Source: Sinomonas humi (GTDB lineage: Bacteria; Actinomycetota; Actinomycetes; Actinomycetales; Micrococcaceae). From it: a DNA stretch of 64,000 nucleotides. Made by a program: the position numbers and the translations under genes. The notes under the pieces are model-generated. The model was not told the origin of the DNA and did no database searches. It saw only the letters and a program-made list of their open reading frames with translations. Numbering within the stretch: the first letter of the stretch is position 1; the number at the start of each line of letters is the position of its first letter. The DNA lies in contig NZ_JTDL01000141.1 in NCBI RefSeq assembly GCF_000802235.1, positions 62,001 through 126,000 of the forward strand, written 5' to 3'. Below are positions 13,346-29,332 of the stretch, one piece after another.

Positions 13346-14439
13346 TGGCTGACGCCCAGGAACGCACCGAGAAGGCGAGCGACAAGCGGCTCCGCGAGGT
13401 CCGCTCGAAGGGGCAGCTCTCGCGCTCGCAGGACCTGACGGCGTGGCTCGCAGTGGGGGCGGGTGCCGTCATGCTTCCCTCGACGATCGACGCCGCCTCG
13501 AAAGCCGGAACGGCCCAGCTCTTCACGGTCACCTGGGTCGTTGCGAGCCCCGACCCAGGCAAGGCCGTGCAGGCGCTCTCGGACGGCCTCGGTTCGATCG
13601 CCGCGACGCTCGGGCCGCTCGCCGCCGTCGTCTTCCTCGCCGTGCTTGTGGGGTCCGCGGCGCAGGGAGGAATCCACCCGAAGCGGCTCACGCCGTCGTT
13701 CGAGCATTTCAACTTCGCCGCAGGGCTCAAGCGCATGTTCGGGACGCAGGCGCTGTGGGGTGGGGTGAAGGCGCTCTTGAAGACCGCCGTCGTGGGGCTC
13801 GTCCTCTGGAGTGTCGTGCAGGGGCTCGTCCCCGTGCTCATGTCGGCGGGCGGCCTCCCGATCTCCGGCGTCCTCGCAGCCGCGAACGACGGCGCCGGGT
13901 CGCTTCTGCGCTTCGCCGTCGCCGCAGGGCTTCTGCTCGCCGCGGTGGACGTCTTCGTCGTCGTCCGCCGCAACCGCACCAAGACCCGTATGACCAAGCG
14001 CGAAGTGAAGGACGAGAACAAGAACAGCGAAGGCGATCCCCTCGTCCGCTCCCAGCGGCGCTCGCGTCAACTCGCGATGTCCCGCAACCGCATGATTGCC
14101 GCGGTGAGCGCGGCCGACGTCGTCCTCGTCAACCCCACGCACGTGGCCGTCGCGCTCAAGTACGAGCCGGGCAAGTCCGCGCCGCGCATTGTCGCGAAAG
14201 GGGCAGGCACCATCGCAGCGCGGATCCGCGAGGAGGCCGAGAAGGAGCGGGTGCCGATGGTGCAGGACATTCCGCTTGCGCGCGCCCTGCACGCAATGTG
14301 CGATCTCGGCCAGGAGATCCCGGTCGAGTTCTACACAGCAGTTGCGGGCGTGCTCGCGTTCGTCATGTCGCTCAAGGCCCGCGGCGGATCGGCGGGTGTC
14401 CATACCCTTCCACCCGGCTTGAAAGGAATACACGCGTGA
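13345..14439 (+). CDS. flhB: Flagellar export switch protein FlhB
   Basis: FlhB controls the change of export substrate from hook to filament. The 364-residue protein has the N-terminal KASDKRLREVRSKGQ segment, four membrane helices, and the autocleavage motif NPTH at residues 263-266 within VLVNPTHVAVALKYEPG. The C-terminal domain (PRIVAKGAGTIAARIREEAE, VPMVQDIPLARAL) is complete. The cleavage residues are intact, so switching should work. Confidence 0.96.
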   Translation: MADAQERTEKASDKRLREVRSKGQLSRSQDLTAWLAVGAGAVMLPSTIDAASKAGTAQLFTVTWVVASPDPGKAVQALSDGLGSIAATLGPLAAVVFLAVLVGSAAQGGIHPKRLTPSFEHFNFAAGLKRMFGTQALWGGVKALLKTAVVGLVLWSVVQGLVPVLMSAGGLPISGVLAAANDGAGSLLRFAVAAGLLLAAVDVFVVVRRNRTKTRMTKREVKDENKNSEGDPLVRSQRRSRQLAMSRNRMIAAVSAADVVLVNPTHVAVALKYEPGKSAPRIVAKGAGTIAARIREEAEKERVPMVQDIPLARALHAMCDLGQEIPVEFYTAVAGVLAFVMSLKARGGSAGVHTLPPGLKGIHA

Positions 14440-16484
14440 ACCGGAATCTGGCACGGCTCGCCGTCCCGGTGGGGATTGTCGGCATCGTCCTGCTGCTCGT
14501 TGTGCCTGTCCCGGCGGCGCTCCTCGACGTGCTGATCGTGTGCAACGTCCTGCTCGCGCTCGTGATCCTGCTGACGAGCATGTTCGTGAAGAAGCCGCTC
14601 GACTTCTCGGTGTTCCCATCGCTCCTGCTCGTAGCAACACTGTTCCGGCTCGGACTCAATGTCGCCTCGACGCGGCTCGTCCTCGGGCAGGGCTATGCGG
14701 GGCAGGTGATCGAGGCTTTCGGCAAGGTCACCGTGGGCGGTTCGCTCATCATCGGGGCGGTCGTCTTCGTGATCCTCGTGGTGATCCAGTTCGTGGTCGT
14801 GACGAAGGGCGCCGAGCGCGTTGCGGAGGTCGGGGCGCGCTTCACCCTCGACGCGATGCCCGGCAAGCAGATGGCCATCGACGCCGACCTCAACGCGGGC
14901 TTGATCACCGACGTCGTCGCCCGGCAGCGTAGGGCCGAGGTCTCCGCGGAGGCCGACTTCTACGGTGCGATGGACGGCGCCTCCAAGTTCGTCAAGGGCG
15001 ACGCGATCGCGGGCATCGTCATCATCATCGTGAACATCGTCGGCGGGCTCGGCGTCGGGATGCTCCAGCGCGGGCTCTCGATCACGGACGCGCTCAACAC
15101 CTACTCCCTCCTCACCGTGGGCGACGGCCTCGTCTCGCAGATTCCGGCCCTGCTCATGGCCGTCTCGACCGGCATGATCGTCACGCGCTCGAACGCCGAG
15201 GCGGACCTCGGGCAGGCCGCATCGACGCAGCTTTCGCAGTCCCGGACGGCCCTCCTCATCGCCGGCCTCGCCGCCGTCGTCATGGCGCTCATGCCTGGCA
15301 TGCCGCCGCTGCCGTTCCTCGGCGTGGGGGCCGCGCTCATCATCGCCTCCCGCCGGATACGCCCCTCGCACGACGGCGATGCCTCCTCCGATGCGAGCGG
15401 TGCCGGGGGAGGGGAGGCCGAGCAGGATCCCACGCAGCGGCTCATGGAGGAGATGCGTGTGCACCCGCTCGAGATCATGCTGGCACCCGACCTCGTGGAC
15501 CTCGTCGGCGGTTCGGCGGACGATCTGCTCGCCCGGGTGAAGTCCCTGCGCCACAAGATCGCGATGGACCTCGGCGTCGTCATCCCGCCGGTGCGGACGC
15601 GCGACTCCGTTGAACTCCCGCCGTCGACCTACGCCATCCGGATCGCCGGCGTCGAAGCCGGCCGCGGGACCGCGCCGTCGGGCAAGCTCCTCGCCCTCGG
15701 CGACTTCCTCGACGCGCTGCCGGGGGCCGCCGTCGTCGAACCGGTCTTCGGGCTCGCGGGCAAGTGGATCCCCGCGGAGATGCGGCACAGCGCGGAGCTG
15801 ACCGGGGCGACCGTGATCGATCGCGTGAGCGTGCTGATCACGCACCTCTCCTCGATCGTGATGGCCAACGCGGCCCGCCTGCTCTCGCGCGAGGACGTCC
15901 GAGTGCTCACCGAGGGGGTCAAGAGTGCAAGCCCGGCCGCCGTCGAGGAGCTCACACCGGGGCTGCTCTCGCTGGCCGAGATCCACCGCGTGCTCCAGGG
16001 CCTGCTCACCGAACAGGTGCCGATCAACGACCTCACCCGCATCTACGAAGCACTCACCCTTCGGGCCAAGGCGTCCACCGATCCCGAGGGGCTCATCGAG
16101 TCGGCGCGGCTCGCCATCGGGCCGGCGCTCGTGCGGCGGCTCATGGACGGGGACAGGCTGACCGTCATCACGATCGAACCGGTCCTCGAGCAAAGCCTCG
16201 TGCAGGATCTCCGACCGGCCGAAGGCGGGACGCAGCTCGTCATGGAGCAGTCGAAGCTCGACTCGATCCTCGCATCGCTCAGCTCCGCGGTTGCCGCGGC
16301 CGAGTCTGCGGGGAAGAGCCCAGCCCTCGTCTGCGCGCCGGTGCTCCGGGCCGCCGTGCGGAAGCTCGTGGCGCTGCCGCCCTCGGGTGTCCCAGTGCTT
16401 TCGTATGCAGAGGTGACCTCGACGTCCGTGAATATCGAGACCATTGGGGTGGTGCGCCTTGGCGCCGCAACAGTATCTGCTTAG
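14436..16484 (+). CDS. flhA: Flagellar export apparatus protein FlhA
   Basis: FlhA is the large export-gate subunit whose cytoplasmic ring receives chaperone-bound substrates. The 682-residue product has eight N-terminal membrane helices, the FHIPEP-region signature FPSLLLVATLFRLGLNVAST, RFTLDAMPGKQMAIDADLNAG, and a cytoplasmic domain from about residue 330 after an acidic Ser/Gly linker. The GTG start overlaps the flhB stop. A much longer open frame exists upstream in the same phase, but it is antisense to nothing useful and overlaps flhB, so it was not used. Confidence 0.96.
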   Translation: MNRNLARLAVPVGIVGIVLLLVVPVPAALLDVLIVCNVLLALVILLTSMFVKKPLDFSVFPSLLLVATLFRLGLNVASTRLVLGQGYAGQVIEAFGKVTVGGSLIIGAVVFVILVVIQFVVVTKGAERVAEVGARFTLDAMPGKQMAIDADLNAGLITDVVARQRRAEVSAEADFYGAMDGASKFVKGDAIAGIVIIIVNIVGGLGVGMLQRGLSITDALNTYSLLTVGDGLVSQIPALLMAVSTGMIVTRSNAEADLGQAASTQLSQSRTALLIAGLAAVVMALMPGMPPLPFLGVGAALIIASRRIRPSHDGDASSDASGAGGGEAEQDPTQRLMEEMRVHPLEIMLAPDLVDLVGGSADDLLARVKSLRHKIAMDLGVVIPPVRTRDSVELPPSTYAIRIAGVEAGRGTAPSGKLLALGDFLDALPGAAVVEPVFGLAGKWIPAEMRHSAELTGATVIDRVSVLITHLSSIVMANAARLLSREDVRVLTEGVKSASPAAVEELTPGLLSLAEIHRVLQGLLTEQVPINDLTRIYEALTLRAKASTDPEGLIESARLAIGPALVRRLMDGDRLTVITIEPVLEQSLVQDLRPAEGGTQLVMEQSKLDSILASLSSAVAAAESAGKSPALVCAPVLRAAVRKLVALPPSGVPVLSYAEVTSTSVNIETIGVVRLGAATVSA

Positions 16485-17734: not shown

Positions 17735-19918
17735 CTATGCGGGCCCCTCCCGGGTCAGGACCGATGACAGGTCGTAGCTGACCGGTTCCTCAAGCTGGTC
17801 GTAGGTGCATGACTCCGGCGTGCGGTCCTGGCGCCATCGGACCCATTGGGCGGTGTGGCGGAACCGCTCGCCCTCCATATGGTCGTACTTGACCTCGACG
17901 ACGCGCTCCGGCCGCAGCGGGACGAACGAGAGGTCCTTGTCTGCGTTCCAGCGGGAGCGGGCCGCCGCCGTAGGGGTGCGCGGTGCCGATTGGTCGCGGT
18001 TGTCTGGCAGCCCCCCGGCGGGCTGCGCCCACGCCCAAGGGTGCTCCTCGAACGTGGTCACGAGCGGCTGCAGTTCCTCGAACAGCTCCTTGCGGCGGGC
18101 CATGGGAAACGCCCCGATGACGCCGACCGAGTTGAGCTTGCCGTGTGCGTCGTACAGGCCCAGCAGCAGGGATCCGACGGCGTCGGGCTCGCCCTTGTAG
18201 AGCCGGTACCCGGCGAGGACGCAGTCGGCCGTCCGCTCGTGCTTGAGTTTGGACATAACGCGTTTGTCCTCGGCGTAGAGCTCTCCGAGGGGCTTGGCGA
18301 CAATTCCGTCCAAGCCGGCGCCCTCGAACCTACTGAACCACTCGAGGGCGAGGGTGGGGTCCTTGGTTGCCTGGGTGAGGTAGACCGGGGGCTTGGCGTC
18401 CTTGAGGGCCTCCTCAAGGGCCGCGCGCCGCTCGCGGAAGGGACGCTCCACGTAGTTGGTCTGGCCGAGGGCGAGCAGGTCGAAGGCCACGAAGCTCGCC
18501 GGCGTTGTGGCGCTCAGCTTTGCGATGCGGGAGGCCGCGGGGTGGATGCGCTGCTGGAGGGCGTCGAAGTTGAGCCGGTCGCCACTGTCCGGGTCGACGA
18601 GGACGATTTCCCCGTCGATGACCGAGTGGTCGGGGAAGTTTGCGACGATCGCCTCGACGAGTTCGGGGAAGTAGCGCGTCATCGGCAGGGCATTGCGCGA
18701 TCCGATCTCCACCCGATCACCCGATCGCCACACGATCGAACGGAAGCCGTCCCACTTCGGCTCGTACAGGTACTCGCCGGTCGGGAGCTTCTTGACCGGC
18801 TTGGCCAGCATCGGTCCGTACGGGGGAGCGATCGCGGTGCCCCACTCGGCGTCGCGCTCCGCTTTGGGCGCCGAATAGTCCTCGTCGGCTCGGTCCGCCT
18901 TCCGCTTGCTCGGCTGCACCCGCGGCGGCTCGCCGGGCATCTTCGGGTAGTCCGGCGGGAAGTTGAGCTCGCCGAGCCCGCGCGCGAGGTCCGCATCCCA
19001 TAAGGCGAGTGCGCCCGAAATGTCGCCCGGCGCGGCGTCGATGTCCTCCCACGGGCAGCCACGGGAGGCCAGGAGCGCGGGAACCGTACGGACGGTGAAG
19101 TCGCGGGGGTCGGCGTCGGGGAGTTCATCCCAGGTCAGCGGGGTCGAGACGGGCGCGTGCGGCAGCGGCCGGGGCGAATAGGCGCCGGCGATCGTCCGGT
19201 CGCGGTTGGCCTGGTTGAAGTCGACGAAGACCCGCTCGCCGCGCTCCTCCTTCCACCATGCGGTGGTCACGAGCTCCGGCATGCGCCGCTCGAGCTCGCG
19301 CGCAATTCCGATGACGGCGTGACGCACATGAAGGAACTCGTGCGTGGGCCGGATGCGCGCGTACACATGGACGCCCCGGTTCCCCGAGGTCTTCGCGTAG
19401 GCCGTGAGCCCTGCCTCGGCCATGACCTCACGCAGAGCGAGGGCGGCGGTGACGGCGTCTCGGAAGTCGCGTCCGGGCTGCGGATCGAGGTCGATCCGCA
19501 GCTCGTCAGGGTTGTCCAGATTGGCCGTTCGCACTGGCCACGGGTGGAAGGTGATCGTTCCCATCTGCGCCGCCCATGCGAGCGCGGCGGCCTCGTCGAA
19601 CACGAGCTGGTCGTGGCGTCTACGGGACGGGTAGGTGCACGTCACCGTCCTGAGGTAGGAAGGCGCGCCCCGCGGCGGCCGCTTGGAGAAGAACTCCTCG
19701 CCGTCGATCCCTTCCGGGAAGCGCTGCAGAGTCATGGGCCTGTCGCCGTTGAGCCGAAGAAAGGGCGCTGCCACCGAGATCAGGTAGCGGGCCAGATCGC
19801 GCTTGGTGAGGGGATCATGCCCATCGACGCCGGGCCACAGCACCTTGTCTGGGCTGCTCAGCTTGACCTCCCGCGCGCCGTCCGGGCCGTCTACGTGCAG
19901 GATCTCAGAATCCGCCAT
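17735..19918 (-). CDS. ligD: NHEJ DNA ligase LigD (polymerase-ligase fusion)
   Basis: LigD repairs double-strand breaks with Ku by end filling and sealing. Residues 1-300 are the archaeo-eukaryotic-primase-type polymerase domain: LDNPDELRIDLDPQPGRDF supplies the catalytic Asp pair, and AKTSGNRGVHVYARI follows. Residues 390-720 are the ATP-dependent ligase: YEPKWDGFRS holds the nucleotidyl lysine, then VIDGEIVLVD and GLDGIVAKPLG. The order is polymerase then ligase, with no 3'-phosphoesterase domain recognised in the 727 residues. No ku gene is adjacent. Confidence 0.93.
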   Translation of the reverse strand: MADSEILHVDGPDGAREVKLSSPDKVLWPGVDGHDPLTKRDLARYLISVAAPFLRLNGDRPMTLQRFPEGIDGEEFFSKRPPRGAPSYLRTVTCTYPSRRRHDQLVFDEAAALAWAAQMGTITFHPWPVRTANLDNPDELRIDLDPQPGRDFRDAVTAALALREVMAEAGLTAYAKTSGNRGVHVYARIRPTHEFLHVRHAVIGIARELERRMPELVTTAWWKEERGERVFVDFNQANRDRTIAGAYSPRPLPHAPVSTPLTWDELPDADPRDFTVRTVPALLASRGCPWEDIDAAPGDISGALALWDADLARGLGELNFPPDYPKMPGEPPRVQPSKRKADRADEDYSAPKAERDAEWGTAIAPPYGPMLAKPVKKLPTGEYLYEPKWDGFRSIVWRSGDRVEIGSRNALPMTRYFPELVEAIVANFPDHSVIDGEIVLVDPDSGDRLNFDALQQRIHPAASRIAKLSATTPASFVAFDLLALGQTNYVERPFRERRAALEEALKDAKPPVYLTQATKDPTLALEWFSRFEGAGLDGIVAKPLGELYAEDKRVMSKLKHERTADCVLAGYRLYKGEPDAVGSLLLGLYDAHGKLNSVGVIGAFPMARRKELFEELQPLVTTFEEHPWAWAQPAGGLPDNRDQSAPRTPTAAARSRWNADKDLSFVPLRPERVVEVKYDHMEGERFRHTAQWVRWRQDRTPESCTYDQLEEPVSYDLSSVLTREGPA

Positions 19919-20159: not shown

Positions 20160-21110
20160 TCACAGACGCTGAACGGACACCGAGAGGCCCGTCGTCAGTG
20201 ACTCGTCGGCCGTCAGGATCGGTGCTCCACCGCCGGGCGGCGTGCGGTCGGGACCGAAAAGGGGAGCTGTCGAGGGCTCGATCCCGAGAGCCCACCGTCG
20301 GCGTGTTGGCATTACCCATTGGTAGAGGCGGGGGAGTGTGTCGGCGGTCCATGCGATGTCGACCCGATGTGTGGGGGACACGACCGCCGCGGACCGGACA
20401 CCGCCGTCGTCGGTGCTGATGTTGCGGTGCTCCCATACGGCCTCGGTGATGTTGTCTGTCGGTTCGGGCAGGCGATCCCAGTGCGGAACCTCGGGGCAGT
20501 CCTCGCGGATCACGGCCTCCACTCCGTGGATCTCCAGAGTCGTGCCGGGGACGGCGACGGGAGCCCCGAAGTTGAGGTGGTAGAGCAGCGCCAGGGGCGT
20601 ATCTCCAGGGCCGAGATTCGTGATCCGGTCGGTGACTTCGATCGAGTCGGTCGTGATTGTCGAGGTGAATGTGATCTGCCGGCGGAGCCGCAAGGTCGGT
20701 GCGAATACCCCGGCGCTGTCCAAGGATCCCGAGATCCTCGCCGTGGCCCCGTCGGCGGTGACCTCTGTAGAGCAGGTGGTTCGGTTGGCCTTCAGGAACG
20801 TGTAGTCACCATGCATGGGCTCGGCTGCACTGGCGGGGCCGATGTTCCTGAGGCCGCAGGTGACGAGCAGGCCGCCTGTGAAGTTCGCCAGCCACTTCTC
20901 GACGCCTGCGCTAGGCGAGGCGTCGGGTGCGATGGGGGAACGCCATGAGATTGGGACTCCGGCAAGGCTAGTGTCGCCGATGTCGAGGCCGCGCTCTGGC
21001 AGGACGGATGCGCTGAGGCCGCCGGCGAGCTGCACCTCCAGCCGGGCACCGGCGACGGAAGCGGTCTCCGGCCGCGACTCGGTCACAGAGACGACCGCGC
21101 GTTCGGGCAT
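20160..21110 (-). CDS. DUF4432 family protein, galactose-mutarotase-like
   Basis: A 316-residue protein with an aldose-epimerase-like beta-sandwich pattern: RLEVQLAGGLSASVLPERGL, then FTGGLLVTCGLRNIGP, SIEVTDRITNLGPGDTPLAL, LYHLNFG and LPRLYQWVMPTRRRWALGIEP. These fit DUF4432, a mutarotase-fold family found beside sugar operons. It is the last gene of the minus-strand arm of the sugar regulon, 44 bases after the isomerase gene. A role in converting anomers, or isomers, of the imported sugar is likely but unproven. ATG 21110 was chosen because the open frame upstream lies inside the isomerase gene. Confidence 0.75.
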   Translation of the reverse strand: MPERAVVSVTESRPETASVAGARLEVQLAGGLSASVLPERGLDIGDTSLAGVPISWRSPIAPDASPSAGVEKWLANFTGGLLVTCGLRNIGPASAAEPMHGDYTFLKANRTTCSTEVTADGATARISGSLDSAGVFAPTLRLRRQITFTSTITTDSIEVTDRITNLGPGDTPLALLYHLNFGAPVAVPGTTLEIHGVEAVIREDCPEVPHWDRLPEPTDNITEAVWEHRNISTDDGGVRSAAVVSPTHRVDIAWTADTLPRLYQWVMPTRRRWALGIEPSTAPLFGPDRTPPGGGAPILTADESLTTGLSVSVQRL

Positions 21111-21154
21111 CAGGCCGCGCCTAAAGAGCTGGCCAGCGCGTGCAGTCGCCGCGC

Positions 21155-22150
21155 TCACGGTGCGGGGGGCCGTGCGACGAGGACAGAGCCATCTGTCTCG
21201 ACGGCAAGGGGCCCGGAAGAGGCAGGCACGACAGCGGTCTCGCCCTTCGAGAGCGCGAGCTGGCCCACAGAGCTGCGGAGCATGGAAGATCCGTCCGTAG
21301 CGATGATGACCGCGTAGCCCGCATCGAAGGCTGCGAAGCGCGTGACCCGGTCGAGCCGGAACCAAGCATCGGCGATAGCAGGGAGCACGGGCCCCTTTAC
21401 GGCGCCGCGTGCGACCAGTCCGGCGAGCCGGGCAGGCTCGAGGGCGTGAGTGTCGACCGCTTCGAGGGCGCGGTCGAAGCCAATCCCGAGATGCCCTTCG
21501 GCCGCCCCGTCAATGTCGAAGCCGTCCCATTCCAGCAGGATGGACAGGTCGGTGGGCTGCTGCACCTCGGCGAGCAGGACGGAGCGGCCAATGGCGTGCA
21601 GAGTCCCCGGCGGGACGACGAGTGCGTCGTTCTTTGCTACTGCCACCTCATTCAGGAGCCCAAGCAGCGCCGTGGTGTCCTGCCTTTCGACGAGCTGGGC
21701 GAGCTCGGCACGATCGACATCCTCGCGGAGCCCGAGGTGGACAACGCCGGGCTCAAGGATGAACCAGGCCTCGGCCTTGCCATGCGCGGAGGCGAGCTCT
21801 GCCGCGGCGAACGCGTCGTCCGGGTGGGCATGCACTGGAAGCCGCTGTCCTGCGTCAAGGAGCTTCACAAGGATCATCGCGTCATCTCCCCAGCGCGCGA
21901 CGTGTGCGGCGCTGAGCCAGGACTCGGGGTCGTCCGCGATGGCGTCCCGCAGGAGCCTGCCCTCCGGAAGCATGCTCAGGCCTGCCGGAAACTGGCCGCG
22001 GACTGCTGTGGTGGAGGCCACCCAATCTTCAGGAGTGTGGTCGGGGCCGGAAGGCAGCGAGCGGAATGCGTCGATCTGCATGCCGCCTGCGTAGAAGCGC
22101 GCCGGCGGGCGGTTCGTCCCGAGGATCAGCGGGCGGAGCATGGGGGTCAC
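21155..22150 (-). CDS. manA: Class I mannose-6-phosphate isomerase
   Basis: This isomerase interconverts mannose 6-phosphate and fructose 6-phosphate using zinc. In 331 residues it shows LVKLLDAGQRLPVHAHPDD with the metal histidines, GKAEAWFILEPGVVHLGL, and NDALVVPPGTLHAIGRSVLL followed by AEVQQPTDLSILLEWDGFD. GTG 22150 overlaps the DeoR stop (GTGA) with GAGGA eight bases upstream; ATG 22141 is the alternative. Its place between the repressor and the DUF4432 gene suggests it feeds the imported sugar into fructose 6-phosphate. It is shorter than the fungal/enteric type and may have wider substrate range. Confidence 0.82.
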   Translation of the reverse strand: MTPMLRPLILGTNRPPARFYAGGMQIDAFRSLPSGPDHTPEDWVASTTAVRGQFPAGLSMLPEGRLLRDAIADDPESWLSAAHVARWGDDAMILVKLLDAGQRLPVHAHPDDAFAAAELASAHGKAEAWFILEPGVVHLGLREDVDRAELAQLVERQDTTALLGLLNEVAVAKNDALVVPPGTLHAIGRSVLLAEVQQPTDLSILLEWDGFDIDGAAEGHLGIGFDRALEAVDTHALEPARLAGLVARGAVKGPVLPAIADAWFRLDRVTRFAAFDAGYAVIIATDGSSMLRSSVGQLALSKGETAVVPASSGPLAVETDGSVLVARPPAP

Positions 22151-22992
22151 TGGGCGATTCCTCGGCGATCGGGGGCTTGGTCGGCGTAGGCGACAAGGAT
22201 CTCGACGCCGGATTCCTCTAGAGCCTCGGCGAGCTCGCCGGGCGGTTCGGCGTCGGTCACCAAGTAGTCGGCGCGGTCGAGTTCCGCGACCTGCGCGAAT
22301 AGCGGCTCGGTGAACTTGGAGGAGTCGGCGAGGATGGCCACGCGCGCGGCGCGGTCCATCATCTCGCCCATCATCACGGCTTCGGCGAGGTTGCTGGTCG
22401 AATACCCGCCCTGTGCCGAGACCGCGCCGACTGAGATGAGTGCGAGGTCGCAGCGCAGCCTGAGATCTTTGCCGCCAGGGGATTGGAGGCTCACCGGTCC
22501 GACCGTGGACTGGCCGGCGAACCTGACCGACCCGCCGAAGAGGTAGAGGTCGCGGACGATCTTCGGCGAGATTTCGGTCGCGATGCGGAGGTTGTTCGTG
22601 GCGATCGTCAGGCCATGCCGCTCACTCAGGTGCCGGACCACAGAGAGGGTGGTCGTCCCGGCGTTGAGCATCAGCACGGAGTTGCTCGACACCAGGGTCG
22701 CGGCGAGGGCGCCGATGCGCTCCTTCTCGTCCGTGTGGAGCTGGAGGCGCACATCGAGCTTCTTCTCTGCGGCTGCCACGGCGTCGACGCTCACGGCGCC
22801 ACCGTGGGTGCGCACGACAAGTCCTTCCTTGTGCAGTTGGTGGAGATCCCGGCGCACGGTGTCGGGCGATACGTCAAAGTGCTGGGCGAGCTGGGCCACG
22901 GTGACCTGCTCCGCCTCTGCGACATAGGCGACGAGTTCGGCCTTTCGGCCAGCTGGCAGGCGCACTGTCGAGGGGTTCGTTCGGTTGGCCAC
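22147..22992 (-). CDS. DeoR/GlpR-family transcriptional repressor
   Basis: The 281-residue protein has the DeoR HTH (VTVAQLAQHFDVSPDTVRRD, then LHQLHKEGLVVRTHGGAV at residues 28-66) and the sugar-phosphate sensor domain with LNAGTTTLSVVRHL, TNNLRIATEIS, and DLALISVGAVSAQGGYS. Such repressors are relieved by phosphorylated sugars. It lies divergent to the ABC importer and first in the minus-strand arm, so it probably controls both arms. The GTG start is 209 bases from the importer start. Confidence 0.9.
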   Translation of the reverse strand: MANRTNPSTVRLPAGRKAELVAYVAEAEQVTVAQLAQHFDVSPDTVRRDLHQLHKEGLVVRTHGGAVSVDAVAAAEKKLDVRLQLHTDEKERIGALAATLVSSNSVLMLNAGTTTLSVVRHLSERHGLTIATNNLRIATEISPKIVRDLYLFGGSVRFAGQSTVGPVSLQSPGGKDLRLRCDLALISVGAVSAQGGYSTSNLAEAVMMGEMMDRAARVAILADSSKFTEPLFAQVAELDRADYLVTDAEPPGELAEALEESGVEILVAYADQAPDRRGIAQ

Positions 22993-23142
22993 GCCCCATT
23001 CCTACCAGATGCTGCCGAAATGTGCCAGACTCTGCCGGTTTCTCCCGGAAGTGGCTATGGGATGCGCATGAATCGGAAGAAAAACCCTTGCCACAGAAGA
23101 AGAGACCTGCATAACATCGCACTATCAAGCACAAATCGGTAG

Positions 23143-23185
23143 TTTCAAGCATGTTTACGCATTGGTTTGCAAGGACTCTTTGAAA
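23143..23185. promoter_or_regulatory. Possible DeoR operator: TTTCAAG...CTTTGAAA inverted repeat
   Basis: TTTCAAG at 23143-23149 and its complement in CTTTGAAA at 23178-23185 flank the likely promoter just upstream of the importer start. A related TCAAGCA also occurs at 23125-23131. The arrangement fits a looped or dimer-paired repressor site. Confidence 0.4.
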
Positions 23186-23201
23186 GCTCTCGGATTGGAG
23201 A

Positions 23202-24509
23202 ATGATGGGCAATGGTGCTCTGGGCCGCTGGAGGCGGCCCACGTGGAAGGCGTCCGTGGCTGCCGCAGCCACGGCGGTGGCGCTTCTGGTGGCTGGCTGC
23301 GCCGGCGGCTCGGGCGGAGGGGGCGGGGGCTCGAACGGGAATGTCACCCTGACGTTCTCGCAGTGGTGGGCCCCTGAAATGCCCTCGGGAGCGCTGCAGA
23401 ACCTGATGGACGAGTTCCACAAGGAGAACCCGAACATCACGGTCAAGCTGATCAGCGCCCCGTTCCAGTCGCTGCAGTCGCAGACGATCTCGCAGGCTGC
23501 CTCGGGCACGCTTCCCGACGTCGTCGGTTTGGACGGCTCGTGGGTGAACCCGCTCTACAAGCAAGGTGCACTGCTGAACCTCTCGGACGCGATGAAGAAG
23601 GCGAACTACGATCCGAAGGATCTGGCGAGCCAGGTCGGCTACAACGGCTCGACCTACATGATCCCCGTGGTCAACTTCGTCTACCCGCTCTTCACCAACG
23701 ACGCGATCCTCTCCCAGGCCGGGATCAGCAAGCCGCCGACGACTTGGTCCGAGTTCGCAGCCGATGCGAAGAAGATCAGCCAGTCCGGTTCCGCGAAGGG
23801 ATGGGTTGTCCCGCTCGGGACCACCAACCCCAACGGCGTCCAGAACGACATCCTCTCCTGGGCGTGGGCATCGGGCGGAAGCATGCTCAGCAATGGACAG
23901 CCGAACCTGACGAACAACCCTGACGTCACCGGCGCGGTAAACCTCGTGAAAGACCTCGTACAGTCCAACGCGGTTCTGCCCGGCGCCAACGCGCTGCAGG
24001 AGACTGACAAGGTCGAGAACTTCATCAACGGCCGGGCCGGGATGATGATCGACTCGCTCGCCCACATCAACACGATCACCAAGGGCAACGCCAACCTGAA
24101 GTTCTCGGTCTCGGCGCAGCCGGTGAAGGATGGCTCCACAGGCACCCCGGGAATGCTCACGGCCTCGTGGGGGATCGGGATCTCAGCCAAGACGCAGCAC
24201 TCTGCCGAGGCATGGAAGCTCGTCCAGTTCCTAATGGACCAGACGAACAACTCCAAGCTCTCCACGCTGGCCAACGGCTTCCCAGGCAACAAGACCTCGA
24301 AGCCGGACTTCACCGGAGCGGACCCCCACTTCCAGCAGGCGTTCGCGATCTACCAGAAGAGCAAGCCGGTCAATGAATTCACCGGGCTGCCCGCAGCCGA
24401 CCAACTCATGACCGACTTCCTGAACGAGTTCCAGAAGACGGTGGCCGGCCAGGAGTCTACGGACACCATGCTCTCCAACGTCCAGAACCAGTGGAAGCAG
24501 CAGTTCTGA
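23202..24509 (+). CDS. Sugar ABC transporter, substrate-binding lipoprotein
   Basis: The 435-residue product has a lipoprotein signal peptide with lipobox LLVAGC near residue 33, a Gly-rich linker, then an extracellular solute-binding protein family 1 fold (TLTFSQWWAPEMPSGALQNL, NLTNNPDVTGAVNLVKDLVQ, NFINGRAGMMIDS, ASWGIGISAKTQHSAEAWKL). It is the first gene of the plus-strand arm with two CUT1-type permeases behind it. No ATPase gene is in the operon, so a shared MsiK-type ATPase is likely. The ligand is not known. Confidence 0.9.
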   Translation: MMGNGALGRWRRPTWKASVAAAATAVALLVAGCAGGSGGGGGGSNGNVTLTFSQWWAPEMPSGALQNLMDEFHKENPNITVKLISAPFQSLQSQTISQAASGTLPDVVGLDGSWVNPLYKQGALLNLSDAMKKANYDPKDLASQVGYNGSTYMIPVVNFVYPLFTNDAILSQAGISKPPTTWSEFAADAKKISQSGSAKGWVVPLGTTNPNGVQNDILSWAWASGGSMLSNGQPNLTNNPDVTGAVNLVKDLVQSNAVLPGANALQETDKVENFINGRAGMMIDSLAHINTITKGNANLKFSVSAQPVKDGSTGTPGMLTASWGIGISAKTQHSAEAWKLVQFLMDQTNNSKLSTLANGFPGNKTSKPDFTGADPHFQQAFAIYQKSKPVNEFTGLPAADQLMTDFLNEFQKTVAGQESTDTMLSNVQNQWKQQF

Positions 24510-24538
24510 TCCGCTGCTCCCGGACATGAGAAGCCCTC

Positions 24539-24572
24539 GCCGGCTGCGCGCCCCACACGGTGAGCAGCCGGC
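24539..24572 (+). other. Intercistronic stem-loop after the binding-protein gene
   Basis: GCCGGCTGC at 24539-24547 pairs with GCAGCCGGC at 24564-24572 (9 bp, 16-base loop). Stem-loops in this place commonly stabilise the upstream message and lower permease expression relative to the binding protein. There is no T-tract, so full termination is unlikely. Confidence 0.5.
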
Positions 24573-24591
24573 CAGGACGGAGACGAGAACT

Positions 24592-25545
24592 ATGACTTCA
24601 TCCCTGTCGATGGCGCAGAACGACCAGCGCAAGCGCGCCGCCGCTCCAGCCCCACGACGCCATCACCGCACGCTGAAAGAGCGCTTGGAGCCATACCTCC
24701 TGATCGCCCCGACGGTGCTCCTCATCCTCGGCCTGATGGTCGTCCCGATCGCTATCGTCATCGGCTACTCGCTGTACGACAACGTGGTGACGAACCCTAA
24801 CCCCGTATTCGTCGGGGCTGCCAACTACGTCACGATCCTGACCAGCCCTGCATTCTGGGGCGCCGCCGGGAACACCCTGGTATTCACCGTCGCCAGCGTG
24901 GTCGCACACATGGTGATCGGCATGGCGTTCGCCATGATGCTGAACTCTAAGACCATGGCACGGGTGCCCCGGGCCATCTTCCGGGCTATCTACATCCTCC
25001 CGTGGATCTTCACAGCATCGGTGGTGGCCGTGCTCTGGCGGCTCCTGCTTGACCCGAGCGGGGTGATCAACTACCTCCTGACGAGCCTCGGCGTCGTCCA
25101 CGATGCCGTCCCATGGCTGGGGACCGCATCGACCGCCCTGCTCGCTGTGACGGTGATTAACATCTGGTCCGGCTACCCGTTCTTCATGATCAGCCTGCTG
25201 GCCGGGCTACAGAACGTCTCGACCGACCTGTATGAGGCCGCCCGAGTCGACGGGGCCGGGTTCTTCCGCCAGTTCGCCAGCGTCACCCTCCCGGCCCTTA
25301 GGCCGATCCTCTACAGCATGGCTCTGCTCGACCTGCTCTGGACAACCCAACAGTTCACCCTGATCTGGGCCACAACAGGAGGCGGACCCCTGGGCGCGAC
25401 GGAGATGCTGAGCACCTTCACCTACAAGCTTGCCTTCAACAGCTACCAGTTCTCGATGGCGTCCACGAGCGCGGTGCTGGTGCTCGCGGCGTCGCTCATC
25501 GTGGCCGTGTTCTACGTCCGCCGCCAGCGCAAGGAGGCGCAGTGA
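24592..25545 (+). CDS. Sugar ABC transporter permease, MalF-type
   Basis: Six membrane helices in 317 residues after a basic N-terminus, with the permease-ATPase coupling motif EAARVDGAGFFRQFASVTLP near residue 215. The helices LLILGLMVVPIAIVIGYSL and AIFRAIYILPWIFTASVV are typical of CUT1 permeases. ATG 24592 was chosen over an in-frame upstream start that would overlap the stem-loop. It pairs with the next gene. Confidence 0.92.
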   Translation: MTSSLSMAQNDQRKRAAAPAPRRHHRTLKERLEPYLLIAPTVLLILGLMVVPIAIVIGYSLYDNVVTNPNPVFVGAANYVTILTSPAFWGAAGNTLVFTVASVVAHMVIGMAFAMMLNSKTMARVPRAIFRAIYILPWIFTASVVAVLWRLLLDPSGVINYLLTSLGVVHDAVPWLGTASTALLAVTVINIWSGYPFFMISLLAGLQNVSTDLYEAARVDGAGFFRQFASVTLPALRPILYSMALLDLLWTTQQFTLIWATTGGGPLGATEMLSTFTYKLAFNSYQFSMASTSAVLVLAASLIVAVFYVRRQRKEAQ

Positions 25546-26432
25546 TGACCGCTATCTCGAAGCAGGCGCCCACCACGGCTAGGACCGCGGCCTCCCGGCG
25601 TGCAGTCCGGCGGGGGGCGGCACGAACCGGGCTGTACGCCGGCCTGACCGCCGGGGCCATCTTCGCAGGCTTCCCCGTCCTGTGGATGCTCTCGAGCTCG
25701 TTCAAGTCCAACGCGAACATCTTCGCGTACCCGCCGAAGCTGTTCGACGGCTCGTTCTCGTTCGCGCCGTACCTGGCCGTGTTTTCGGACCCGGTGGAGA
25801 TCGGCTACTTCGCCAACAGCTACATCGTGGCCCTGTCGGTGACGGTTGTAACGCTCGTCGTGGCCCTCCTTACGGGCTATGTCTTCAGCCGCTATGAGTT
25901 CCCGCTCAAGCGGATCATCAGCATCGTCATCATCGGGGTACAGGCTGTGCCGCCGATCACGCTGCTGATCCCGTTCTTCGGGATCATGGTCGCGCTTGGG
26001 CTCTACAACACCTATCAGGGCCTCATTATCACCTACGTCGTGTTCACACTGCCGTACGCGGTGATCATGATGACTGCGTACTTCGACAGCCTCCCGAAGG
26101 AGGTCGACGAGGCAGCCAAGGTCGACGGCGCCAGCTCGATGTCCATCCTCTGGCGGATCCTGGTTCCGATCTCGGTGCCCGGGATGGTCTCCGTAGGCCT
26201 CTACACCTTCATGATCTCCTGGAACGAGTACCTCTTCGCGCTGACGCTCACCCAGACCGACGACAGGCGCACTGTCCCCGTCGGGATCCAGCTGCTGATG
26301 GGCCAGAACAACTACCTCTGGAACGAGGTCATGGCCATGAGCATCCTCGGTTCCATCCCCGTGCTCGTCCTCTTCCTCATCTTCCAGCGCTACTTCATCG
26401 GCGGCCTCGCCGCTGGCGCGGTCAAATCATGA
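25545..26432 (+). CDS. Sugar ABC transporter permease, MalG-type
   Basis: A six-helix permease of about 295 residues with the EAA motif EVDEAAKVDGASSMSILWRI and LVPISVPGM at about residues 187-215, and the MalG-like N-terminus FPVLWMLSSSFKSNANIF. AAGGAGG seven bases before ATG 25545 favours it over GTG 25542; either overlaps the previous stop. Together with the MalF-type partner it forms the membrane channel. Confidence 0.92.
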   Translation: MTAISKQAPTTARTAASRRAVRRGAARTGLYAGLTAGAIFAGFPVLWMLSSSFKSNANIFAYPPKLFDGSFSFAPYLAVFSDPVEIGYFANSYIVALSVTVVTLVVALLTGYVFSRYEFPLKRIISIVIIGVQAVPPITLLIPFFGIMVALGLYNTYQGLIITYVVFTLPYAVIMMTAYFDSLPKEVDEAAKVDGASSMSILWRILVPISVPGMVSVGLYTFMISWNEYLFALTLTQTDDRRTVPVGIQLLMGQNNYLWNEVMAMSILGSIPVLVLFLIFQRYFIGGLAAGAVKS

Positions 26433-26482
26433 CGCGGCGCTGAAGACGCCCGATTTCTGCCCAACAACAAGGAGAAACCAAA

Positions 26483-27403
26483 GTGCTGATCAACGGCAAG
26501 GACCTGCTCGCAGTGGCGAACGACCACAACTTTGCAGTTCCCGCATTCAACGTGAGCGACTATGCGATGAGCAATGGGCTCTTCGAGATCTGCGAGGAGA
26601 AGGCGGCACCGTGGATCCTCGCGATTCACCCTGACGAGGTCTCCCACATCGGGCACGAAGCAATCCTGGCCTTGCGAGAACGGGCCCACCGCTCCTCGGT
26701 GCCCGTCGCCATCCACTGGGACCACGGGGGAAGCTACGAGCAGATTCTCACGGCCATCAAGGTGGGCTTCACCTCAGTCATGATCGACGGATCGATGCTG
26801 CCCTTCGAGGAGAACGTGGCCATCACCAAGCGCGTGGCGGACTCGGCGCACGCCGTCGGGCTTTCCGTCGAAGGCGAGCTCGGTACCATCGGCAAGACTG
26901 ACGACCAAGCCGAGGCCGGCACGGACGACATTATCTACACGGACCCTGCCCAGGCCGCCGAGTTCATCGAGAGGACCGGCGTGGACAGCCTCGCAGTTGC
27001 GATTGGCACACGCCATGGGATCTACCCATCGACTCTCAAGCCCGAGCTCAAGCTCGACCTGCTGACCGAGATCAAGCGGACCGTGGGGATCCCGCTGGTC
27101 CTGCACGGCGGATCGAACAACCCCGACGGCGAGATCGGCCAGTCGGTCAAGCTCGGCATCAACAAGATCAACATTTCCAGCGACATCAAGGTTGCTTACT
27201 TTGACGCTATGCGCGAAGTCCTGGCAGATCGCTCGCTGCGCGAGCCCAACCTTATCGAACCTCCAGCCGCCGAGGCCATGAAGCGGGTCGCCGCCCAGAA
27301 GATCGACCTGTTCGATGCTGGCGGCAAGGCACACCTCTACGCCAACGGACTCGCAGCTGCATCGAGGCCGGCCGGGCGCGAGGCAGGAACGTTGGTCGGC
27401 TGA
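26483..27403 (+). CDS. Class II ketose-bisphosphate aldolase
   Basis: A zinc aldolase of the fructose/tagatose-bisphosphate type. In 306 residues it shows VPVAIHWDHGGSYEQILTAI with the Asp-His metal pair, SVEGELGTIGKTDDQ, IGTRHGIYPS, VLHGGSNNPDGEI with the second zinc histidine, and GINKINISSDIKVAY. The loop IHWDHG differs slightly from the usual LHLDHG. It cleaves a ketose 1,6-bisphosphate into dihydroxyacetone phosphate and an aldehyde. The GTG follows AAGGAGAAACC, and the stop overlaps the kinase ATG, so the two steps are co-made. Confidence 0.88.
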   Translation: MLINGKDLLAVANDHNFAVPAFNVSDYAMSNGLFEICEEKAAPWILAIHPDEVSHIGHEAILALRERAHRSSVPVAIHWDHGGSYEQILTAIKVGFTSVMIDGSMLPFEENVAITKRVADSAHAVGLSVEGELGTIGKTDDQAEAGTDDIIYTDPAQAAEFIERTGVDSLAVAIGTRHGIYPSTLKPELKLDLLTEIKRTVGIPLVLHGGSNNPDGEIGQSVKLGINKINISSDIKVAYFDAMREVLADRSLREPNLIEPPAAEAMKRVAAQKIDLFDAGGKAHLYANGLAAASRPAGREAGTLVG

Positions 27404-28644
27404 TGGCAAAGACGACGATACTCGGGCTCGGCGGCACGATCGACTACGAGCTCCACTGGGATGCGCGGATACTCGGATCCCTCGCCGCCGAGTCCGGCAT
27501 CGTCGACCTCGGCTCCACCGCCCCGCAGGTGATCGATTCGGAGCGGACGCTCGTCCTCTCCGTCCTCCATCACCTGCGGGCTGGAACCGGGGGCGAGCAT
27601 TTCGTGGAAACACCGGAGGTCATTGAGCGTTTCGCTGCACGATTCGGCTACCGCACCACTCTCGGCGGCACACCGGTCCGCGCGGCCTTGGCCATGAGCA
27701 GCCTGGGCATCGGGAGCACGGTGCACCTCGTGTCCATCGACGATGACGTGCGTCGTCTCCTGCCGGCAGACGTGGACTACCTCTGCAGCGCCGAACACGA
27801 CTCCACCGACCCCCACCTGATCGTCCAATACCCCGCCAACGCCCGAATTCGGATCGGCGACGAGGAGGTCGTCGCCTCGAGTGCAAATCGGCTCATCTAC
27901 CCAAGCGACCACCCCAACGCCGAACTCCGCCTCAGCCGCGACCTGCCCGAAGCCCTCAGTGGTGCAGGTGTCTTCCTCATCTCGGGAATGAACTCGATGC
28001 AACAGCGCGACACGCTCGACGCGCGGCTGGAGGAACTCATCGCCGCCATGAAGAGCCTCCCGCTTGAAGCAGTGACCATCTACGAGAACGCGGGTTTCCA
28101 CATCCCGGGCTTCAGTCAGATCGTCCTCGACGCCCTTGCACCGCACGTCGACATCGTCAGCCTCAACGAAGACGAACTCATTGGCGCCCTTGAACGACCC
28201 GTCGACCTTCTGGACCCGATCGATCTCACCGCTTCTGTGCGCGAGTTCGCGGCGCGGGTGCCGACGCCCACAATCGTGCTCCACACGCGGCACTTCGCCT
28301 TGGCCCACGGGGAACGTGCCAGCCGGATGAGAGCCGTGCTCGCGAGCGGAACCGCCGCCTCAGGGGCGAGATACGCCTACGGTGACAATGCCACCCGTGA
28401 TGATGTGGAACGCCTCGACGCGAACGGGCAACGCAGCGCAGCCGGCCAGTCGCTGGCCGACTCCTTGCAGGGGAATGAGGAATTCTGTGTGGTTCCAGCA
28501 TTCGACCTGCAAGATGTCTCGACGCCCACGACTATCGGCCTAGGCGATACTTTCGTCGGTGGCGCAGTGGCTGCGCTTGTACGAGCGCAGAGCGAATCGC
28601 GGGCGGAGCAAATTGTCGAGGAGGTCGATCAATCTCCTCGTTGA
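27403..28644 (+). CDS. ADP-dependent sugar (phospho)kinase, ADPGK/ADP-PFK family
   Basis: A 413-residue ribokinase-fold protein of the ADP-dependent glucokinase/phosphofructokinase family known best from archaea. Visible are the N-terminal ILGLGGTIDYEL, the substrate loop YRTTLGGTPVRAALAMSSLG, GVFLISGMNSMQ, DIVSLNEDELIGAL, and the catalytic GLGDTFVGGAV near the C-terminus with its general-base Asp. The length and the NEDEL block separate it from normal PfkB kinases (about 310 residues). Overlap with the aldolase stop points to making the bisphosphate that the aldolase splits. Whether it phosphorylates a free sugar, a sugar phosphate, or both is open. Confidence 0.78.
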   Translation: MAKTTILGLGGTIDYELHWDARILGSLAAESGIVDLGSTAPQVIDSERTLVLSVLHHLRAGTGGEHFVETPEVIERFAARFGYRTTLGGTPVRAALAMSSLGIGSTVHLVSIDDDVRRLLPADVDYLCSAEHDSTDPHLIVQYPANARIRIGDEEVVASSANRLIYPSDHPNAELRLSRDLPEALSGAGVFLISGMNSMQQRDTLDARLEELIAAMKSLPLEAVTIYENAGFHIPGFSQIVLDALAPHVDIVSLNEDELIGALERPVDLLDPIDLTASVREFAARVPTPTIVLHTRHFALAHGERASRMRAVLASGTAASGARYAYGDNATRDDVERLDANGQRSAAGQSLADSLQGNEEFCVVPAFDLQDVSTPTTIGLGDTFVGGAVAALVRAQSESRAEQIVEEVDQSPR

Positions 28645-28672: not shown

Positions 28673-29332
28673 TCAGGTGGGAATTGGACTGGCAACTACC
28701 GGGAACATCCCGGCGACTTTGACCCCGACTACGACGACGGCGAGGACTGTGGTTGCGATCAGTGCCCAAATCGGGGCGAGGCCGCCCCGCTGGGCGACCT
28801 TACGCACGACAACGGACCGGCCGATGACATACACCGCTTGCGCGAGGAAGGCCCACCCCCAGTGGAACGGCCTCACGACCCCTTCAGCGGCCAGCTTCTT
28901 CCAATCCAGATATGCGAAGCAGACGCAGAGCACGTAGGAGAGGAAACTCGCGAAAAGCATCAGGAAGTACACCGGCGTGAAGACCGAGTTCAGCTCGAGC
29001 ATCCGGACGATGTGCCCACTGCTGACGAGGGTGCGGTAGCTGAGCGTGGGCTTCCATGCGAGCTCGAGCAGCACATTCGCGAGAGGCACGAGCACGACGA
29101 GCCAGATCGCCCAGTTGTACACGGCTGCCCCGGGGCGAAGTGGCGGTCTTCCTTTGGCCCTTCCCGGGAAGGCCTGGGCCCGTTGGGTGTCGATCCAAGA
29201 ACGCCCATCCCACCACAGCTGTCCTCGGCGGTCTGGCGCCGGGTACCAGCCCGGAGGCAGCGCCGACGAACCGAATACCCGTGTGCCTTGAGGCGGCCAT
29301 CCACCGCTCTCTCCCACCATTTGCTCCCCCAA
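28673..29332 (-). CDS. DUF2510 domain membrane protein
   Basis: A 219-residue protein with the actinobacterial DUF2510 signature LPPGWYPAPDRRGQLWWDG followed by RSW near residues 25-47, then four predicted membrane helices with a DUF4328-like pattern (YNWAIWLVVLVPLANVLLEL, FLMLFASFLSYVLCVCFAY, WALIATTVLAVVVVGVKV). Such proteins are common and uncharacterised; the soluble motif is thought to mediate protein contacts. It ends convergently with the kinase gene. Confidence 0.8.
   Translation of the reverse strand: MGEQMVGESGGWPPQGTRVFGSSALPPGWYPAPDRRGQLWWDGRSWIDTQRAQAFPGRAKGRPPLRPGAAVYNWAIWLVVLVPLANVLLELAWKPTLSYRTLVSSGHIVRMLELNSVFTPVYFLMLFASFLSYVLCVCFAYLDWKKLAAEGVVRPFHWGWAFLAQAVYVIGRSVVVRKVAQRGGLAPIWALIATTVLAVVVVGVKVAGMFPVVASPIPT

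Follow-up and report, generated by a model that had tools for sequence, protein, structure and literature searches.

A putative ketose 1-phosphate pathway joining an ADP-dependent-family sugar kinase to a class II aldolase in Sinomonas humi and other Actinomycetota

We have analysed an eight-gene sugar cassette of Sinomonas humi located at positions 20160-28644 of a 64,000-nucleotide stretch of contig NZ_JTDL01000141.1 (positions 62,001 to 126,000 of the forward strand, assembly GCF_000802235.1), the whole of which is referred to here as the window. One arm of the cassette encodes an ATP-binding cassette (ABC) importer, a class II aldolase and a sugar kinase of the ADP-dependent glucokinase/phosphofructokinase (GK/PFK) family, and the other a DeoR-family repressor, an isomerase and a DUF4432 protein. 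Judged from sequence comparison and predicted structure, it is rather probable that the cassette provides a self-contained catabolic route for one ketose, in which phosphorylation at C1 by the kinase would be followed by aldol cleavage. As to the sugar, our guess is a ketose of the fructose, tagatose, sorbose or xylulose type, 3S-configured ketoses that would fit the chemistry of class II aldolases. The wider proposition, that a bacterial ADP-dependent ketose 1-kinase has moved from archaeal-type glycolysis to a rare-ketose operon, where the kinase and an ABC importer stand in for a fructose-type phosphotransferase system (PTS) and supply a ketose-1-phosphate aldolase, is held with roughly even confidence.

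The open reading frames were re-derived from the window sequence, giving the following eight genes:

20160..21110, minus strand: DUF4432 protein, aldose-1-epimerase-like, a probable sugar mutarotase, optional (PF14486, E 3.9e-61)
21155..22150, minus strand: divergent type I mannose-6-phosphate isomerase (PMI)-like aldose-ketose isomerase, optional (predicted fold, metal site)
22147..22992, minus strand: DeoR-family repressor, facing away from the import/catabolic arm (HTH_DeoR and DeoRC; DeoRC E 8.5e-38)
23202..24509, plus strand: ABC importer sugar-binding lipoprotein (SBP_bac_1, E 4.7e-36)
24526..25545, plus strand: ABC importer permease A (BPD_transp_1; the true start may be further downstream)
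25542..26432, plus strand: ABC importer permease B (BPD_transp_1)
26483..27403, plus strand: class II aldolase with an H-P-x-E motif and no distal phosphate site, putatively acting on a ketose 1-phosphate (PF01116, E 1.2e-88; residue table, tree)
27403..28644, plus strand: sugar kinase of the ADP-dependent kinase family, proposed ketose 1-kinase (PF04587, 84.5 bits; model, fold search, residues)

The DUF4432 frame ends at 20160 on the minus strand with a likely start at 21110, picked by codon score, and the isomerase starts at either 22150 or 22141 on the same strand. One base (27403) is common to the aldolase and kinase frames, and no ABC ATPase gene is present within the cassette. An earlier sequence-only reading of this DNA had proposed the same eight genes, strands and one-base overlap, all of which the open-frame check bore out; the families that it assigned were recovered by Pfam, that of the isomerase weakly by sequence and also by predicted fold.

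By profile and modelled fold, the kinase is a member of the ADP-dependent GK/PFK family, as that reading had proposed. It matches the Pfam profile ADP_PFK_GK (PF04587) with an E value of 8.4e-24 and 84.5 bits against a cut-off of 27 and is the sole PF04587 protein of the genome; as a control, 14 named genomes were searched with the profile, and two of them, each from a methanogen, gave matches. Foldseek searches with an AlphaFold2 model (mean predicted local distance difference test score 92.7) returned ADP-dependent kinases at all of PDB ranks 1-22 (E 1.0e-24 to 9.2e-18), ATP-using ribokinase-family proteins appearing only from 1.0e-9 or worse, and the profile alignment with the P. furiosus ADP-glucokinase spans almost the full length. 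An ordinary PfkB kinase was rejected, as the PfkB score (19.8 bits) is under the cut-off of 25.8 and the fold search sets the kinase apart. The only kinase of the cassette is a PF04587 protein, with none of PfkB or ROK type, which sets the cassette apart from a mannose or tagatose operon with an ATP-dependent kinase.

Residue roles in the ADP-dependent family (K179, N181 and R212 for fructose 6-phosphate (F6P); E90; D36) were taken from PMC7948494, one of several papers that, here and below, are cited for the parts consulted. Kinase residues were placed by alignment and checked against the spacing given in that source (179-181-206-212), R206 and D36 likewise. The GxGD motif with its catalytic Asp, the NxxE motif, the Asp equivalent to D36 and the Arg equivalent to R206, which is described as essential and conserved across the whole ADP-dependent family (PMC7948494), are kept in 82 of 82 kinase homologues. 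Conversely, the F6P-type Lys at the K179 place is found in none of the 82 (Asp in 70, Tyr in 7, Glu in 5), while the N181 place is His and the R212 place Asp in every homologue. The E90 place, located by alignment to 1ua4 and mouse ADPGK, is Glu in 82/82. Because the Lys is absent, His and Asp stand at the N181 and R212 places and Glu is kept at E90, the aligned residues match what is seen in glucokinases rather than in enzymes that use F6P.

The aldolase scores 297.7 bits with F_bP_aldolase (PF01116; cut-off 25.5) and passes TIGR00167, ketose-bisphosphate aldolase (257.9 against 215.6). Its closest subfamily is the uncharacterised class II group PRK08185 (NF006042), for which both the window aldolase (395.1 bits) and that of Sinomonas mesophila (382.2) fall just under the cut-off of 405. 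The metal and catalytic residues D80, H81, H178 and H208 are present in 81 of 81 homologues, and the residues on the phosphate side of dihydroxyacetone phosphate (DHAP), G209, S211, N230 and S233, are retained. The Arg of the 'DPR' loop occurs in none of the 81 (Asn in 67, Leu in 13, Asp in 1), and the S/T-x-G stretch of the distal pocket has become H-P-D-E, with His49 and Glu52 in 80 of the 80 homologues having a residue there. Both the DPR Arg and S/T-x-G are present in all nine bisphosphate-aldolase rows, including the FBP (fructose 1,6-bisphosphate) aldolase of the same genome, GatY and KbaY; two of the nine, 7ncc and Fba_Bmeth, are at zero tree distance (fba of Bacillus methanolicus pBM19), 7ncc being counted as an FBP aldolase. 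These groups hold the C6 (distal) phosphate in published structures. The residue pattern suggests an aldolase without a second phosphate-binding site, and since that site appears to be missing, single phosphorylation of a free ketose followed by cleavage would be the favoured sequence of events.

Relatives of the aldolase point in the same direction. Close relatives (~49-54% identity) occur in plasmid records and also in E. coli chromosomes, and in all eight loci that are intact and annotated (from Listeria, Enterococcus, Carnobacterium, Pantoea and E. coli, two of the eight being from one Listeria strain) fructose-annotated PTS permeases lie in the same gene run, with no sugar kinase annotated in the run in 7 of the 8. 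Among the ten best plasmid matches, H4 was left out, H1 is unannotated (its almost identical counterpart in E. coli was consulted) and H10 is split into three pieces, a PTS IIA being its one annotated feature. The PTS-linked aldolases have the H-P-x-E motif without the distal Arg in 8 of 8 rows, and form one clade with the actinobacterial aldolases in a quick tree of 27 rows (SH-aLRT, Shimodaira-Hasegawa-like approximate likelihood ratio test, 95), a tree with SH-aLRT support only, in which some branches are marked as long (ownFBA 5.24) and the bisphosphate rows do not all fall on one side. Three of the PTS-linked proteins score above the PRK08185 cut-off (525.9, 519.2 and 481.5), and aldolases of this subfamily, still named 'hypothetical protein' in NCBIfam, are present in 1581 of 5426 complete E. 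coli genomes as well as in Listeria and Enterococcus. The likeness to these systems, of which the E. coli example lies between yicI and yicH in what is presumably the frz operon, thus extends to clade and pocket; they differ in that the cassette has an ABC importer and a kinase in place of PTS uptake and phosphorylation, and in the isomerase, which is PMI-like in the cassette whereas the E. coli PTS locus has a D-lyxose isomerase (PF07385) together with a ROK protein. PTS operons also carry, beside the H-P-x-E enzyme, a further class II aldolase that is very unlike it and likewise lacks the distal Arg (E. coli, L098 6069-6920; Listeria, L095 5130-5984). Fructose-type PTSs phosphorylate ketoses at C1, yielding ketose 1-phosphates. 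A tagatose PTS likewise yields the 1-phosphate, according to the consulted part of PMC10101011. By analogy, the most economical interpretation would have the aldolase receive one type of product in both lineages, from the PTS in the first and from the ABC importer together with the kinase in the second.

The isomerase scores under both the Pfam cut-off (22.8 against 27) and the NCBIfam manA cut-off (50.3 against 116.2); with its predicted fold, Foldseek ranks 1-17 are all mannose-6-phosphate isomerases. The metal site (H106, E124, H182) is kept, as are K93, K122 and E192. The active-site Arg of PMI, which lies ten places past a conserved Glu in the ManA proteins of B. subtilis and of this genome, is replaced by Leu in 52 of 53 isomerase homologues and by Val in 1 of 53, a position located by counting from E192, where MAFFT has a gap. 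This residue is R274 of Salmonella PMI, whose R274A mutant is known here from a PDB title alone. Because a second, ordinary ManA (233.5 bits) is already encoded in the genome, a free sugar is the likelier substrate of the cassette isomerase than mannose 6-phosphate, a view consistent with the residue comparison. The sole PDB match of the DUF4432 protein is 3ty1, a 'hypothetical aldose 1-epimerase' (E 3.3e-6). A PFK and an FBP aldolase are present in the genome in addition to ManA, in agreement with the earlier suggestion that the importer-kinase-aldolase regulon stands apart from the cell's own enzymes. The PFK family is represented by two partial matches (G000:C44:17-742 and G000:C35:57715-58083), one of them at a contig start, which may belong to a single broken gene or to two.

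Conservation of the cassette was examined in relatives found by the kinase alone. Named genomes were scanned with five kinases, which gave 140 confirmed relatives, and the best 80 of the 140 were kept (L023 and L041 being one strain). All 80 loci are from Actinomycetota, in 7 named families and 15 named genera, a make-up that is uninformative on other phyla as the scan patterns were derived from this kinase family. Kinase matches occur in 5 of 197 genomes of the bacterial family, that of S. humi included, and in 1 of 396 genomes of the phylum, its own, with at most four candidates scored per listed genome. A module borne by plasmids or viruses was considered and rejected, no kinase match being found in plasmids and no confirmed relative in viral contigs. 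An aldolase gene precedes the kinase in the same direction in 79 of the 80 loci, at distances of -1 to 113 bases (n = 80, the 79 loci and the window). The exception, L047 (8699-9964), has a single frame in which the start of a seryl-tRNA synthetase runs into the aldolase's C-terminal half, and is probably a chimeric contig. Genes were called in a set of 82, made up of the 80 loci, L006 and the window; of these, 79 have the permeases, 76 the binding protein and 73 DeoR. A shared operator was sought in the intergenic stretches between the DeoR and binding-protein genes of 72 loci, and no palindrome occurs in more than 9 of the 72.

The remaining genes are less constant. The PMI-like isomerase is present in 51 of the 80 loci and DUF4432 in 14, all of which also carry the isomerase; a looser tblastn search of 84 partly duplicate loci raised DUF4432 to 16, the additional loci being L036, cut by a contig end, and L067, where the gene lies away from the kinase arm. 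Some of the 29 isomerase-less loci are cut by contig ends. When 12 of them were inspected (flanks by eye, from first residues), the kinase was the last core gene in all 12, and 11 were without a recognisable adjoining isomerase, which counts in favour of the ketose route proposed below. From these frequencies, and because most inspected flanks offer no substitute isomerase, importer, kinase and aldolase form the core, which the optional isomerase and DUF4432 extend. Flanking sugar genes vary by genus: a gluconokinase-like gene lies beyond the cassette in Cryobacterium (L020, by eye), and a TIM-barrel isomerase and a GFO/IDH oxidoreductase flank the Promicromonospora locus (L044).

In the route that we propose, the ABC importer would bring in the free sugar. 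Were this an aldose, the DUF4432 mutarotase and the PMI-like isomerase would convert it to the free ketose; were it a ketose, neither would be needed. The kinase would then phosphorylate the ketose at C1, the site that we infer, with ADP, the donor expected from its family, being converted to AMP. In what would be the last step, the aldolase would split the ketose 1-phosphate, giving DHAP along with an aldehyde that bears no phosphate, glyceraldehyde from a hexose or glycolaldehyde from a pentose. DeoR would repress both arms, presumably until an intermediate of the route appears.

Several observations weigh against this route. The kinase pocket departs from all characterised members of its family, because 81 of 82 homologues have Gly, and the other has Gln, at the N32 place, which PMC7948494 describes as conserved family-wide, and because both Gln residues that contact glucose in MjPFK/GK (Gln116 and Gln244; PMC7948494) are lost, Thr90 and Asn197 standing in their places in 82/82 (Thr90 being placed to within one residue, at an alignment gap). 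The substrate position is deduced from pocket residues in a protein at 15-20% identity to solved structures. The main weakness of the aldolase argument is an invariant R253 (81/81), three residues ahead of the lost Arg, which from its position might be a substitute phosphate ligand. The isomerase has gained an invariant R100 (53/53), and in 13 of the 53 an Arg lies four places after the lost one. At L044 the TIM-barrel gene, which is xylose-isomerase-like, lies downstream of the kinase in place of the PMI-like isomerase, and the related E. coli operon contains another class II aldolase and a kinase of the ROK family.

R253 and R100 leave some room for an alternative in which ADP-dependent phosphorylation by the kinase would yield hexose 6-phosphate, fructose (tagatose) 1,6-bisphosphate or both, with the 6-phosphate as substrate of the isomerase and the bisphosphate as that of the aldolase. 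The family names ADP_PFK_GK and F_bP_aldolase, the TIGR00167 score above cut-off and the existence of bifunctional GK/PFK enzymes (PMC7948494) are also in its favour. We nevertheless regard it as unlikely, as the expected second-phosphate residues are absent from all aligned homologues of the kinase, the aldolase and the isomerase whereas the FBP aldolase of the same genome keeps them; because these groups are missing from all three enzymes, a route through hexose 6-phosphate or fructose 1,6-bisphosphate is unsupported. The sequence-only reading had envisaged that hexose 6-phosphate would be formed and then phosphorylated again to fructose 1,6-bisphosphate, a scheme at odds with the aldolase distal Arg (0/81) and the kinase Lys and second Arg (0/82), and had included DUF4432 and the isomerase among its core steps, which their frequencies reduce to accessories.

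A second alternative keeps the ketose 1-phosphate route and makes the kinase an ATP-dependent enzyme, or one with another donor, on the ADP-kinase fold. The drift of the pocket at N32 and the two Gln would fit such a change, and limited use of ATP by some ADP-PFKs of archaea is mentioned in the consulted part of PMC12965863. We consider this similarly improbable, given that R206 is kept in 82 of 82 homologues and that a gap separates ADP-dependent kinases (E 9.2e-18 or better) from ATP-using ribokinase-family proteins (1.0e-9 or worse) in the Foldseek search. A sulfo-sugar or other acid-ended sugar (sulfoquinovose, a uronic acid or similar) degraded by a route like that of Embden-Meyerhof-Parnas (EMP) is less probable still: the Firmicutes sulfo-EMP2 pathway does combine an isomerase, a kinase and the class II aldolase SqiA (PMC12890257) and ABC importers serve sulfoquinovose in Arthrobacter (PMC8873060), but no sulfolactaldehyde reductase or dehydrogenase is found among the eight window genes or the gene families common to most loci (the first 45, inspected by first residues), and the Asp and Glu of the aldolase distal pocket would be unsuited to an anion, SqiA itself not being among the aligned rows.

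Read as a ketose 1-phosphate pathway, the cassette shares features with several known systems. With the archaeal and mammalian ADP-dependent GK/PFK enzymes of PF04587, the kinase shares profile, fold and the counterparts of GxGD, NxxE, R206, D36 and E90, whereas here it is actinobacterial, encoded in a dedicated catabolic operon, and has lost N32, both glucose-contact Gln, the Lys for the F6P phosphate and the second Arg. The E. coli ydj cluster similarly brings together a DeoR regulator (YdjF), a kinase (YdjH) and a class II aldolase (YdjI), which we take to cleave a C1-monophosphate. YdjI too is without the distal Arg, no residue of it aligning at that place (2/2 rows), and is on a separate branch of the tree. 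The ydj cluster presumably also differs in its major facilitator superfamily transporters, dehydrogenases and PfkB-type kinase. The D-tagatose PTS route (TagTH, TagK, GatY) has a ketose 1-phosphate as first intermediate and a class II aldolase as last enzyme (PMC10101011), but differs in that a second kinase forms the 1,6-bisphosphate and GatY keeps the distal Arg. Sulfo-EMP and sulfo-EMP2 resemble the cassette in the isomerase-kinase-aldolase order of their chemistry (PMC12890257), but use other kinase families and need a C3-sulfonate enzyme, which is not among the cassette genes.

The cassette is flanked in the window by genes for an FHIPEP (FlhA-type flagellar export) protein at 14436-16484 on the plus strand (E 3.9e-233) and a LigD-type primase-polymerase/ligase at 17735-19918 on the minus strand. 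An open frame that follows the kinase at 28673-29332 on the minus strand has a PGWYPDP-like start (by eye) and gave no Pfam match at 1e-5.

A bacterial presence of the ADP-dependent family is not new as such, because PMC7948494 mentions the family in bacteria, in the consulted part without detail. A 2025 review of glycolysis lists the ribokinase-superfamily ADP kinases under Archaea and the bacterial ADP-PFKs as of the unrelated PFK-A type (PMC12965863, consulted part). Our literature searches found no paper on this cassette or on an actinobacterial ADP-dependent ribokinase-family sugar kinase, and the operon, the changed pocket and the proposed ketose 1-phosphate route are new against the literature found. 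Three substrate classes are given for the family in the consulted part of PMC7948494, namely glucose, F6P and both; the ketose substrate class and its pathway, if true, would lie outside them. This would be a new reaction for the ADP-dependent kinase family, in a mesophilic and genetically tractable bacterial setting, and the long-standing question of why sugars are activated at the expense of ADP in some cells would become testable by kinase swaps within a single operon. The PRK08185 aldolases would likewise gain a function, and DHAP-forming aldolases for unphosphorylated aldehydes are useful in rare-sugar synthesis.

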